A stretch of DNA of 64,000 bases from the NCBI GenBank assembly GCA_016866775.1, contig VGLJ01000005.1:1-64000 (forward strand), given 5' to 3'. Below, in pieces: positions 27,169-38,324 of the stretch. The position numbers and the translations under genes are program-made. The stretch comes from Candidatus Rokuibacteriota bacterium (GTDB lineage: Bacteria; Methylomirabilota; Methylomirabilia; Rokubacteriales; CSP1-6). Below the pieces are notes generated by a model. That model searched no databases, was not told the DNA's origin, and saw only the letters and a program-made list of their open reading frames with translations. Numbering within the stretch: the stretch's first letter is position 1; each line of letters begins with the position of its first letter.

Positions 27169-28266
27169 ATGCGGCGGTCGATGAATTCTGTGATCGGGCT
27201 CGTCCTCGCGCTCTCACTTTTCGGGTGCGCTGCGCCCGCCACGGCCTCTGATCCGGGCGGGGTGACGTTCAGCTGGCAGGAGTCGCCGACGGTCCTGACA
27301 GCGCCCCCCGAGCTGGCTCGCTTCAACGATCTGCTCGCCGACCTGGCGGATCGGTTGAAGCCCGCGCTCGTGCACGTGCGCGTGCGCCGGCCGGCGACCA
27401 AGGACAAGGACGACTCCGAGACGCCGACCGAGCCGCGGCGCTCGAGCGGGTCCGGGTTCGTCATCACGCCCGATGGGCTCATCGTCACCAACGCGCACGT
27501 CGTCGAAGGCGCGGACTGGATCCAGGTGCGCCTGTTCGACGGCCGCCGCTTTCAAGGCAAGGTGATCGGGCGCGACAACCGGGTCGACGTGGCGCTGGTG
27601 AAGATCGACGGCGTCGAGAAGCTGCCCACCCTCCGGTTCGCCGACTCCAACAAGGTGCGCGTCGGCGAGTTCGTGCTGGCCCTCGGTCACCCCTTCGGTC
27701 TCGAGCAGACCGTGAGCTTCGGCATCGTCAGCCGCAAGGGCACACCGCTCAGCGCGGCGGCGGCGGGCTTCGACTTCATCCAGACCGACGCGGCGATCAA
27801 TCCCGGCAACTCCGGCGGCCCGCTCGTGAACATGGCCGGCGAAGTGGTCGGCGTGAACAGCATGGCCGCGCGCAACGGCTCGATCGGGTTCGCGATCCCG
27901 TCGAACCTCTTCAAGGTCCTGGTGCCGCAGCTCGCGTCGAAGGGCAAGGTCGAGTGGGGCTGGCTCGGCGTCAGCATCGCCGAGATCACCGACGACGACC
28001 TCGCCCGGCTGAAGCTCACCGAAGCGCGCGGCGTCCTCATTCGCTCGGTGGTGCCCGGCGAGCCCGCGGAGAAGGGCGGCATCAAGGCCAACGACGTCAT
28101 CACCGCCATCGACGGCACCACGCTCAACACGCCGCGCGACCTGCAGCGGATCGTCTCGGCGTCGCCGGTCGGCAAGCGCGTCCGTGTGGTCGTCCTGAGG
28201 GACGGCAAGCCGAGCGAGGTGGAAGTGGAGATCGGCCGCTACCGGGAGCCGGACGACAAGAAGTAG
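27169..28266 (+). CDS. HtrA/DegP-type periplasmic serine protease (lipoprotein)
   Basis: A 365-aa envelope protease/chaperone. The N-terminus has a signal peptide with a lipobox, LALSLFGC, so the mature protein should be lipidated. The trypsin domain shows all three catalytic residues: His in VTNAHVVEGAD, Asp in NRVDVALVKID and Ser in NPGNSGGPLVN. One PDZ domain follows (LGVSIAEITDDDL to VEVEIGRY). The ATG at 27169 is favoured by the AAGGAGG site. It probably degrades misfolded envelope proteins. Compare the catalytically dead relative at 43169-44182. Confidence 0.92.
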   Translation: MRRSMNSVIGLVLALSLFGCAAPATASDPGGVTFSWQESPTVLTAPPELARFNDLLADLADRLKPALVHVRVRRPATKDKDDSETPTEPRRSSGSGFVITPDGLIVTNAHVVEGADWIQVRLFDGRRFQGKVIGRDNRVDVALVKIDGVEKLPTLRFADSNKVRVGEFVLALGHPFGLEQTVSFGIVSRKGTPLSAAAAGFDFIQTDAAINPGNSGGPLVNMAGEVVGVNSMAARNGSIGFAIPSNLFKVLVPQLASKGKVEWGWLGVSIAEITDDDLARLKLTEARGVLIRSVVPGEPAEKGGIKANDVITAIDGTTLNTPRDLQRIVSASPVGKRVRVVVLRDGKPSEVEVEIGRYREPDDKK

Positions 28267-28287
28267 CTCCGCGCCGCGGGCGCGCGC

Positions 28288-28782
28288 CTACACGCGCGCC
28301 CGCGGCCTTGCCACCGCCGCGAGCGTCACCCGCGCCCACGCCGAGTCGAGCGGCACCACCGGCGCGAAGCGCAGCCCGGCCACGATCCGCGCGCTTCCTT
28401 CCTCCGGCGACGCCGCGTCTTCGCGCACCTCCTCCACGCCGAGCAGGAAGTAGGCGAGCCGCGGGTCCTCCACGACCGGCAACGGACCGTCGACGCGGCG
28501 CAGCTTCACGTACGCGACCACGTCCGGCTCGACGATGAGCAACGTCGCGACGTCACGCGCTTCGAGATTCCGCGCGCTGTCGCTCGCGGCGTGGATCACG
28601 AGGCCCACCGTCGTGGCGTCGTACGCGCGCAGCTCGAGGTACGACACCATCATCGGGTGCGGCCGGCCGTCACCGTCGACCGTGACGAGGGGCAGCGCCG
28701 CACCCACCCGGCTCGCGAGATCCTCCTGCGACAAGCGGCCCACCAGCGACGGCGTCAGCGCGCGTCCCACCACCCGGCTCAT
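28288..28782 (-). CDS. Pyridoxamine 5'-phosphate oxidase-like FMN-binding protein
   Basis: A 164-aa split-barrel protein. The segment VGAALPLVTVDGDGRPHPMM followed by LVIHAASDSARNLEARD and ATLLIVEPDVVAYVKLRRV fits flavin-reductase/PNPOx-like proteins, which bind FMN or F420 at a dimer interface. The substrate is unknown. The ATG at 28782 is chosen because TATAGT (minus strand, 28789-28794) lies 6 nt upstream, giving a leaderless transcript. Three tandem 17-bp palindromic repeats cover its -35 region. Confidence 0.7.
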   Translation of the reverse strand: MSRVVGRALTPSLVGRLSQEDLASRVGAALPLVTVDGDGRPHPMMVSYLELRAYDATTVGLVIHAASDSARNLEARDVATLLIVEPDVVAYVKLRRVDGPLPVVEDPRLAYFLLGVEEVREDAASPEEGSARIVAGLRFAPVVPLDSAWARVTLAAVARPRARV

Positions 28783-28799
28783 GCCCGGACTATACGTTG

Positions 28800-28850
28800 G
28801 TGACCACGTCACGCCAGTGACCACGTCACGCCAGTGACCACGTCACGCCA
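28800..28850. repeat. Three tandem 17-bp palindromic repeats (operator candidate)
   Basis: The unit GTGACCACGTCACGCCA is repeated exactly three times (28800-28816, 28817-28833, 28834-28850). Each contains the inverted repeat GTGAC-CAC-GTCAC. They lie immediately upstream of the minus-strand -10 box of the FMN-binding protein and about 45 bp before the sigma-54 enhancer palindrome of the plus-strand gene. A regulator binding cooperatively to the array is likely. Confidence 0.75.
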
Positions 28851-28894
28851 GTGCCCCCTGTCCAGCGGGGTGGTCCGAGCTATTCAGACCTTGA

Positions 28895-28972
28895 CCACCT
28901 GAGCGGTGGGCAGGGCGAGCGTGACTCATAACTATCTGATTTCATGAATCCCTGGTCTGGCTCGCCCCTTGC
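28895..28972 (+). promoter_or_regulatory. Sigma-54 promoter with upstream palindrome
   Basis: TGGC at 28958-28961 and TTGC at 28969-28972 give the -24 GG (28959-28960) and -12 GC (28971-28972) separated by exactly 10 nt, the sigma-54 architecture. The palindrome CCACC-TGAGC-GGTGG (28895-28909) is centred 57 bp upstream of the GG, a suitable position for an enhancer-binding protein. The same arrangement precedes the paralogous gene at 37890. Confidence 0.75.
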
Positions 28973-29000
28973 GCTAGAGACGGCGCAGGAGGACGACTGA

Positions 29001-29369
29001 ATGATGACCAAGGAACTCGATCCGCAGGCACCGTGGGTGTACCGGCTGACCCTCGTCGACCACGCGCTCGCCGCCGGCACCATGAGCCAGGCCTTCTACG
29101 AGTGGCACGAGGCGCACGGCGAAGCGTTCAGGAGCGGCCGGTGGGAAGCGTTGCTCGCCGTCGGAGACGCCGCCGCACGGATCGACGCGGCGATGGGCTC
29201 GGCCGTGGACTTCCGTGCGGACGCGCGGCGCGTGTACCTCGCGGCCCTGGTCCGCGCGCGCGCCGAGTACTCGGCGGCCGGCGTTCGCCGGATCGCGGAG
29301 GCGTTCGCTCGCCTCGGCGACCACGAGCTCGCCGAGCGTGCGTTCCGCGTCGCTCAGGATCTGTGCTGA
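29001..29369 (+). CDS. Small protein, paralogue of 37890-38324, sigma-54 controlled
   Basis: A 122-aa soluble protein of unknown function. It shares the line W-x-x-RL-x-x-x-D-x-A with the 37890 protein, followed by SQAFYEWHEAHGEAF (there SRATYEWREAYGAAL) and an Ala-rich helical second half. It has no signal peptide, unlike its paralogue. All predicted structure is helical. GGAGG lies 12 nt before the ATG at 29001; 29004 is an equivalent start. The sigma-54 promoter upstream implies dependence on an activator responding to a specific signal such as nitrogen or envelope stress. I recognise no named domain. Confidence 0.75.
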   Translation: MMTKELDPQAPWVYRLTLVDHALAAGTMSQAFYEWHEAHGEAFRSGRWEALLAVGDAAARIDAAMGSAVDFRADARRVYLAALVRARAEYSAAGVRRIAEAFARLGDHELAERAFRVAQDLC

Positions 29370-30307
29370 AGCTGATGGTCGACCCCGACGAGGACCTGGG
29401 CTGGCGTCGTGAGCGCCGGGTCCGCGAAGGGTTCCGACTGCGCGACCACCTCGACCCGGGGCCCCCGGGCAGCACAGGACTCCGGCGGAAATCCAAGGTG
29501 AATGGCGACCGTCGCCGTCCCGAGCGCGCCGGCGACGTGCGTGAGCCCGGTGTCGGGGCCGATGAAGAGCCGCGCGCGTCCGACGGCGGCGCACGCGGGC
29601 AGGATCCCGAGCCGACCGAGCGGCCGGCAGAAGGGCGGTAGCGCCGTCTCGTCCGAGCCGGTCGTGTCGACGACGATCGGCAGATCCGTTCGCGCGCGCA
29701 GCGCTTCGTACAGCGCGTGATAGTGCGCGAGCGGCCACGAGCGGAACGCGCGGCGCCCGCGCACGAGCTGCACGACGTAGATGAACTCGCGCACGCCCAG
29801 CCGCTCGAGGTGATCGTCGGCCTCGCGGCGATGCGCGTCGGTCAGGTGGATGCGTCCCTCCCGCGGCGGCGTCACGCCGCACGCTTCAGCGTAGACGGCT
29901 GTGAGGTGCTTGCCGCGCGTCCACCAGCGCGCGTCGCCGCTGTCGAGCAGGACGACGCGCTCGTAGAAGCGGCCGAGGACGCGCGTGATGAGCGCGCGAT
30001 GCGCGCGCCGCGCCGGCTTGTAGACGAACGGGGCGTAGACGGTCGCGACGTGCGGGTTCGCTTCGACCAGCGTGCGATAGGGCGGCGCGCCCGTGCCCAT
30101 GTCGACCGCGTGCGCGGCGGCGAGCGCGTCGATGCTGGGAAACGCGTTGACGAGGTCGCCGATCCCGCCCATCAGCGACACGAAGACGCCGCGCCGCGGG
30201 TGGCGCGCGCGCGCGAGCGCGATGCGCGCGAGCTCGAGGTAGAAGCGGCGCCGGAAGACGAGCCGCTCGAGGGGCGGCCGCGCCGAGCGCGTGCCTTTGA
30301 AGATCAT
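29354..30307 (-). CDS. Glycosyltransferase family 9 (heptosyltransferase-like)
   Basis: A 317-aa GT-B fold enzyme that would add a heptose or related sugar to lipopolysaccharide at the cytoplasmic face. Features are VFVSLMGGIGDLVNAFPSI near residue 41, where the acceptor domain binds, and the donor-site motif ARLFIGPDTGLTHVAGALGT near 257-276. Length fits small GT9 members. Its last 16 nt overlap the convergent small gene. A CAGAAT -10 candidate lies 5 nt before the ATG. The substrate is not deducible. Confidence 0.75.
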   Translation of the reverse strand: MIFKGTRSARPPLERLVFRRRFYLELARIALARARHPRRGVFVSLMGGIGDLVNAFPSIDALAAAHAVDMGTGAPPYRTLVEANPHVATVYAPFVYKPARRAHRALITRVLGRFYERVVLLDSGDARWWTRGKHLTAVYAEACGVTPPREGRIHLTDAHRREADDHLERLGVREFIYVVQLVRGRRAFRSWPLAHYHALYEALRARTDLPIVVDTTGSDETALPPFCRPLGRLGILPACAAVGRARLFIGPDTGLTHVAGALGTATVAIHLGFPPESCAARGPRVEVVAQSEPFADPALTTPAQVLVGVDHQLQHRS

Positions 30308-37857: not shown

Positions 37858-37889
37858 GCTCATCTCCCGCTCGCAAGGAGGAGATGATC

Positions 37890-38324
37890 ATGTTCTCCCG
37901 GACACGACGAATCGCTCTGATCACGGTGGCGGCGGTCGCGGCGCTCGGCATGGCGCTCGAAGCGAGCCCGCAGACGGTGGCGCGCCTGAGCCGCATCGTC
38001 ATCGTCGAGCCGCCCGCGGCCGGTCTCTGGGCCGAGCGCCTGCAGACGCTCGACGAGGCGATCGCCGCGCGCTCGCTCAGTCGCGCGACGTACGAGTGGC
38101 GCGAAGCCTACGGCGCCGCGCTGGGGACGATGAAGTGGCAGCCGCTTGCCGACGTCGCCGATCGCGCGCTCGTGATCGACGCCATGGCAGGCGGGCGCAC
38201 GCGGTATCCGGACGAGGCGGAGCGGATCTATCGCTTCGCTCTCGCCCGTGCGCGCGCCGCCCAGGCGACGGAGGGCATCGAACATCTGACCGCCACGCTG
38301 GCGACGACGCACGCCGCGCGATGA
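37890..38324 (+). CDS. Secreted paralogue of the 29001 protein, sigma-54 controlled
   Basis: A 144-aa protein with a signal peptide (RRIALITVAAVAALGMALEA) followed by a helical domain with LWAERLQTLDEAIAARSLSR and ATYEWREAYGAAL, which matches the small protein at 29001. AAGGAGG (37875-37881) gives the best spacing to the ATG at 37890; 37884 is an alternative. The protein is probably periplasmic. The shared sigma-54 promoter and upstream palindrome imply regulation by the same activator as the 29001 gene. I recognise no named family. Confidence 0.75.
   Translation: MFSRTRRIALITVAAVAALGMALEASPQTVARLSRIVIVEPPAAGLWAERLQTLDEAIAARSLSRATYEWREAYGAALGTMKWQPLADVADRALVIDAMAGGRTRYPDEAERIYRFALARARAAQATEGIEHLTATLATTHAAR

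Follow-up and report, generated by a model that had tools for sequence, protein, structure and literature searches.

The window, i.e., the entire 64,000-nucleotide stretch of DNA that was analyzed, contains a tandem array in the intergenic region between two genes. These flanking genes had been described as divergent in the initial annotation, and their coordinates and strands bear this out. The features of the locus are as follows.

28288-28782, minus strand: gene for a PNPOx-like protein of flavin-binding type (Pfam PF01243, E 3.9e-07)
28789-28794, minus strand: -10-like TATAGT, read from the sequence, 6 nt upstream of the PNPOx ATG
28800-28850, no strand assigned: tandem array of three exact 17-bp units, GTGACCACGTCACGCCA, with a partial fourth copy to 28853
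28808-28821, no strand assigned: first perfect GTCA-N6-TGAC dyad, GTCACGCCAGTGAC, 136 bp upstream of the sigma-54 -24 element
28825-28838, no strand assigned: second perfect GTCA-N6-TGAC dyad, 119 bp upstream of the -24 element
28842-28855, no strand assigned: third, imperfect dyad, GTCACGCCAGTGCC, with one mismatch in its right half-site, 102 bp upstream of the -24 element
28881-28897, plus strand: enhancer-like TATTCA-GACCT-TGACCA, fitting the TGTTCA-N5-TGACCA element of the 122-aa family, at -77 from the sigma-54 promoter
28958-28972, plus strand: sigma-54 (-24/-12) promoter-like TGGCTCGCCCCTTGC, upstream of the 122-aa gene
29001-29369, plus strand: gene for a 122-aa protein with six helices and a TPR-like predicted fold, without a Pfam family

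The exact triple array reported at the outset was recovered in full, with GTGACCACGTCACGCCA mismatch-free at 28800-28816, 28817-28833, and 28834-28850, followed by the GTG of a fourth unit. Tandem Repeats Finder (TRF) returned 3.2 copies, a 100% match, and a score of 108, the top score both in the 64-kb window and in 464 kb of its own genome (surveyed as the window plus twenty 20-kb stretches). The runner-up in the 464 kb scored 95 with 78% matches; among all TRF arrays scoring ≥40 there, this one alone combined ≥95% matches with ≥3 copies of a unit >3 bp. In the own-genome assembly (159 contigs, 5.13 Mb), the exact 13-mer GTGACCACGTCAC has zero further copies, which answers the proposed genome-wide search for single copies of the unit; variable copies away from promoters, named beforehand as contrary evidence, were seen neither for the 13-mer (5.13 Mb) nor among arrays (464 kb). 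A dispersed repeat or genome-wide minisatellite was rejected on these same two surveys, with no second exact 13-mer and no similar array. Usual reads are longer than the 54-bp array, which makes an assembly artefact unlikely, and the identity of the copies suggests that the array is young.

Beyond this genome, the strict tandem pattern gave two non-own matches in the 57 family genomes, both at places with open frames >750 aa, and no intergenic match in the 56 others. A GTDB scan, which may omit records near the window's genome, returned two Streptomyces doublets of another unit; these tandem GTGAC-N3-GTCAC doublets, with differing units (L074:7198-7227 and L075:806-835), are look-alikes with no sign of kinship. 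A structured RNA leader was also considered and rejected, as neither strand folds better than shuffled sequence (z -0.25 and 0.06); Rfam gave no family at gathering score across 28200-29500.

With TATAGT only 6 nt before the ATG, a leaderless PNPOx transcript is plausible. The proposal of a leaderless gene with its -35 zone covered by the array stands in part: the -35 zone does lie inside the array, but a consensus scan found no sigma-70-type promoter and did not score the TATAGT as part of one. On the other side, the 122-aa gene is preceded by AGGAGG, which reads as ribosome-binding-site-like. The best AlphaFold model of its product is all-helical with a pLDDT of 92.9 (of the five models, two scored low, at 66.6 and 64.6), and among solved structures the model comes nearest to TPR proteins and designed helical-repeat proteins (best E 0.014). 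The window also encodes a paralogue of this protein, at 37884-38321; it is 39% identical, carries an N-terminal hydrophobic stretch, and has its own sigma-54-like match upstream, TGGCCCCCGCTTTGC.

PNPOx homologues were matched in 57 of the 99 genomes searched. From 61 matches, 47 upstream regions were analyzed (46 of them non-own; 30 from loci and 17 fetched), with fetched L099-L101 left out along with 11 matches that were partial, weak, or secondary. A divergent sigma-54-like promoter is present in 20 of the 47, the window included, and GTCA-N6-TGAC occurs in nine of the 19 non-own regions of this kind. This is the inverted spacing strongly enriched in the orthologous upstream regions (shuffle mean 0.03; nine reached in 0 of 300 shuffles), though the nine regions represent two genera (six genomes of one and three of the other) and are not independent, so that the shuffles, being blind to kinship, overstate the case. 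Each of the nine carries a single dyad ≤200 bp from the gene, and all have the divergent sigma-54-like promoter; the dyad was not found in the remaining 10 of the 19, nor within 200 bp in the 27 further regions, one of which (L025) has a dyad at 281 bp. Its position in relatives, at -44 (four cases), -54, -59, -61, -71, and -103 from the PNPOx start, matches that in the window, at -39 and -56. In all nine relatives, the right half of the dyad belongs to a TTGACA, which could serve as a -35 element. Since relatives with a dyad near the PNPOx gene carry one copy, the recent expansion suggested in the initial annotation gains support as a lineage-specific one.

The same dyad is associated with sigma-54-like promoters well beyond the PNPOx gene. 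Across the 57 genomes, GTCA-N6-TGAC is found ahead of TGG-N8-TTGC at a gap of 45-75 bp in 69 cases versus 1 in the reversed control, and at 76-106 bp in 45 versus 3, both counts including orthologous promoters and sites resembling coding sequence; at 110-140 bp, there are 7 non-own cases versus 7 in the control. Ten of the 69 sites are the PNPOx/lipoprotein-like intergenic region itself and 59 lie elsewhere. Loci existed for 30 of the 69, of which 29 were readable after L188 was dropped for its short flank; these amount to at most 25 distinct loci, an upper figure because the similarity cut was ungapped and crude. At one such locus (L178), the frame downstream of the class site is presumably PilZ-like. 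Judged by sequence, GTCA-N6-TGAC is thus a family-wide enhancer-like class tied to sigma-54-like promoters at 45-106 bp.

The array shares with this class its dyads, two perfect and one with a single mismatch, as well as a downstream TGG-N8-TTGC at 28958-28972. Its distances lie outside the class range of 45-106 bp for the perfect dyads (119 and 136 bp) and within it for the imperfect third one (102 bp) only, and its own genome has zero GTCA-N6-TGAC sites 45-106 bp from a sigma-54-like promoter; for these two reasons, we do not file the array as a member of the class. The same results, with no excess seen at 119 and 136 bp, also speak against the array serving the present sigma-54 promoter as an ordinary enhancer. 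In base composition, TGAC is followed by G in 41 of the 69 class sites and by C, as in the array, in four; the arms GTCAC-N4-GTGACCAC of the array recur in two of the 69, both from one genus.

These comparisons bear on which register of the array would be recognized. The initial annotation had taken the palindrome GTGAC-CAC-GTCAC as the unit, and this is probably not so: in a shifted register, the array consists of repeated GTCA-N6-TGAC dyads, and it is this register that recurs in orthologous regions and is coupled to sigma-54-like promoters, with TGAC-N3-GTCA not among the spacings found in at least two orthologous PNPOx upstream regions. Outside the array, GTGAC-N3-GTCAC has 3 perfect sites in 5.13 Mb versus 1 for the backwards pattern; a regulon of this motif was considered and rejected, two of the three outside sites having been inspected, one lying in long frames and the other in frames of ≤144 aa. 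A regulon of GTCAC-N4-GTGAC, with seven sites outside the array versus 1 in the reversed control, was likewise rejected; five of the seven lie in open frames >550 aa, the other two (L107 and L110) lie in frames of up to ~250 aa, and a sigma-54-like promoter was found within 350 bp of none of them. A tripled random 17-mer of the own genome would contain GTCA-N6-TGAC with a probability of 0.00034 and TGACCAC with a probability of 0.0018, values to be taken as guides and not as tests, several motifs having been inspected.

The 122-aa family has an enhancer-like element of its own. TGG-N8-TTGC is present within 300 bp upstream in 18 of 32 family loci (2 own and 16 from relatives) and in reverse orientation in 1 of 32, the 32 being 3 own loci and 29 from relatives, restricted to matches with a locus and with L014 left out because of a contig end. 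Among the 16 relatives with the promoter, a relaxed TGTTCA-N5-TGACCA stands at -76 to -80 in 11, nine of which have TCA-N5-TGACCA; TGACCAC amounts to 14 copies in nine of the 16, all in one orientation, versus a shuffle mean of 0.42 and a maximum of 4 in 1000. The window has four TGACCAC copies in the family orientation, three of them derived from the array. Because a separate copy of the element, TATTCA-GACCT-TGACCA, is present at 28881-28897, the family-type enhancer of the 122-aa gene is not the array. The two share the TGACCA(C) half-site and the same intergenic region; however, the arms of the array are spaced by N6 as opposed to N5, and its half-sites fall between -123 and -157 instead of the expected -76 to -80, i.e., the array is 57-91 bp further upstream.

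The neighborhood of the PNPOx gene also differs between the window and its relatives. Among 29 loci of relatives, 14 (with the query L022 counted) have as the neighbor not the 122-aa gene but a lipoprotein-like gene without a Pfam family, related to that of L022, and in eight genomes a 122-aa homologue lies 30-58 kb from the PNPOx gene on the same contig. Taken together, these two differences indicate that the intergenic region of the window has probably been rebuilt. It looks as though the PNPOx side forms the left of a seam and the 122-aa promoter unit the right, with the array near the seam itself. The lipoprotein-like gene of L022 was unmatched in ~0.5 Mb of own sequence, which is part of the genome.

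Considering these data, the reading that we prefer, although tentatively and at somewhat short of an even chance, is that the array represents a lineage-specific tandem triplication of a GTCA-N6-TGAC operator of the type used by sigma-54 activators (EBPs). The likeliest history would be that one dyad stood at the PNPOx promoter and was subsequently tripled in the lineage of the window. The initial proposal of a multi-site operator thus persists as the best reading, with expansion supported, but the palindrome on which it was built is probably not the unit. Each dyad would be occupied by one dimer bearing a Fis-type HTH, and two perfect dyads and an imperfect one, set at 17-bp spacing, would provide a shared platform for several dimers. 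Because the array covers the PNPOx -35 zone, bound protein would act most directly on the PNPOx gene, probably by occlusion, and this would be the likeliest present effect; looping to the sigma-54 promoter of the divergent 122-aa gene is possible, despite the family-type enhancer at 28881-28897. We consider a more elaborate variant to be a long shot. In it, a rearrangement would have joined the promoter halves of two sigma-54 units, after which the enhancer of the older unit tripled to yield a hybrid switch; the in-line dyads would seed an activator oligomer, repressing the flavin gene and, from farther away than is usual, co-activating the transplanted 122-aa gene.

FleQ belongs to the sigma-54 activators, and NorR half-sites follow the pattern GTCA-N3-TGAC, unlike the GTCA-N6-TGAC of the array. 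The proposed consensus for the FleQ site of Pseudomonas, as quoted in PMC6120874, is GTCaNTAAAtTGAC, which the authors call unreliable in P. fluorescens F113. Its GTCA/TGAC half-sites and six-base spacing are identical to those of the array, a likeness of site sequence alone; however, the center of the quoted FleQ consensus is A+T-rich (NTAAAt), whereas that of the array is G+C-rich (CGCCAG) and so departs from the FleQ type. NorR requires three enhancer sites in front of norVW (PMC2941729); there, as in the array, three sites occupy one intergenic region, and those of NorR serve a sigma-54 activator. Unlike the NorR sites, the array is an exact tandem repeat, with two of its three dyads perfect. 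An activator-type operator is preferred because of the dyad in orthologous regions at similar distances from the PNPOx start, the coupling of the dyad to sigma-54-like promoters, its improbability in a random tripled 17-mer, the longer arms shared with two class sites, the FleQ-like half-sites and spacing, and the three-site NorR precedent. Our literature search for sigma-54 or RpoN in Rokubacteria gave nothing on the subject.

Three other explanations were weighed; as the readings overlap, their likelihoods need not sum to one. The array could instead be an operator through which an ordinary sigma-70-type regulator acts on the PNPOx gene, reading GTGAC-CAC-GTCAC or its half-sites without any link to sigma-54. 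This would fit the placement of the array over the -35 zone beside the -10-like TATAGT, the TTGACA that contains the right half of the dyad in nine relatives and is fit for a -35 element, and the position of the perfect dyads beyond the range of sigma-54 enhancer distances seen here. Even so, we hold it to be unlikely, though by no means remote, since GTGAC-N3-GTCAC has just 3 sites beyond the array and TGAC-N3-GTCA is missing from the spacings shared by at least two orthologous regions, no regulator gene adjoins the array in the window, and the dyad spacing common to the relatives belongs to the sigma-54-coupled class. A neutral tandem expansion, through slippage in replication or end-joining at a rearrangement junction, and now without function, is in our estimate fairly unlikely. 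The probable youth of its identical copies, its location near the seam of a probably rebuilt intergenic region, and the lack of an intergenic match to the strict tandem pattern in 56 other family genomes would all be expected from such an event. The low probability of the dyad arising in a random 17-mer (0.00034) argues against it, as does a promoter-region location for an array unmatched in 464 kb of the own genome; these contrary points have limited force, however, given that a genuine ancestral element may itself have tripled neutrally.

The remaining explanation overlaps the preferred reading without being exclusive of it, and would have the array supply extra TGACCAC half-sites, next to the element at 28881-28897, for the activator of the 122-aa family. 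The recurrence of the TGACCAC core before the sigma-54-like promoters of the family (14 copies in nine of 16 relatives versus 0.42 in shuffles), its probability of 0.0018 in a tripled random 17-mer, the extra copies in L051, L054, L056, and L063, and the presence of two relatives of the large activator in the own genome are consistent with such a role. We nonetheless judge it improbable, as the array pairs the half-site at N6 and the family at N5, the extra copies in relatives are promoter-proximal to the core site, unlike the array with its 57-91 bp further upstream, genome-wide TTGACCA is only weakly specific for positions ahead of sigma-54-like promoters (69 versus 28 in the control), and both own activator relatives end at contig ends.

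Under the preferred triplication of an activator-type operator, the array looks like a freshly multiplied switch and not a new kind of system. If this is right, it would constitute a clear natural example of a bacterial enhancer element multiplying in situ after a promoter rearrangement, and the number of activator sites, their spacing, and their distance would become directly testable. Apart from the array, this work reveals the putative family-wide sigma-54 enhancer class GTCA-N6-TGAC as well as the repeated occurrence of genes of the 122-aa family together with very large sigma-54-activator fusions.

The search for a linked regulator suggested in the initial annotation gave no adjacent one within the window, and no EBP gene was recognized by motif beside GTCA-N6-TGAC or PNPOx loci in the flanks examined. 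Near the 122-aa homologue, however, an ORF with sigma-54-activator motifs occurs in 13 of 29 non-own loci. The four such ORFs that were fully read, all from relatives (L134:1743-5876, L135, L136, and L140), are 1359-1387 aa in length. The one scanned contains a sigma-54 interaction domain, a Fis HTH, an AAA_16 ATPase domain, and TPRs, and has GAFTDA in place of the GAFTGA motif of sigma-54 activators. The own genome has 18 Sigma54_activat matches >180 bits, and two relatives of the large activator, at L137:6018-8702 and L126: one on contig C118 (43% identical over 911 aa) and one on C75 (61% over 259 aa). As both frames reach a contig end, neither is known whole. The C75 frame leaves the contig start, and its 712 upstream bases contain no sigma-54-like promoter, TGACCAC, or GTCA-N6-TGAC. 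The C118 relative, in which no TPR was matched, runs close to its contig end into a stretch that matches a 122-aa paralogue in antisense. By eye, the ends of G000:C56 (L138) and G000:C118 (L137) show an apparent overlap inside another 122-aa paralogue, suggesting that these two contigs adjoin.
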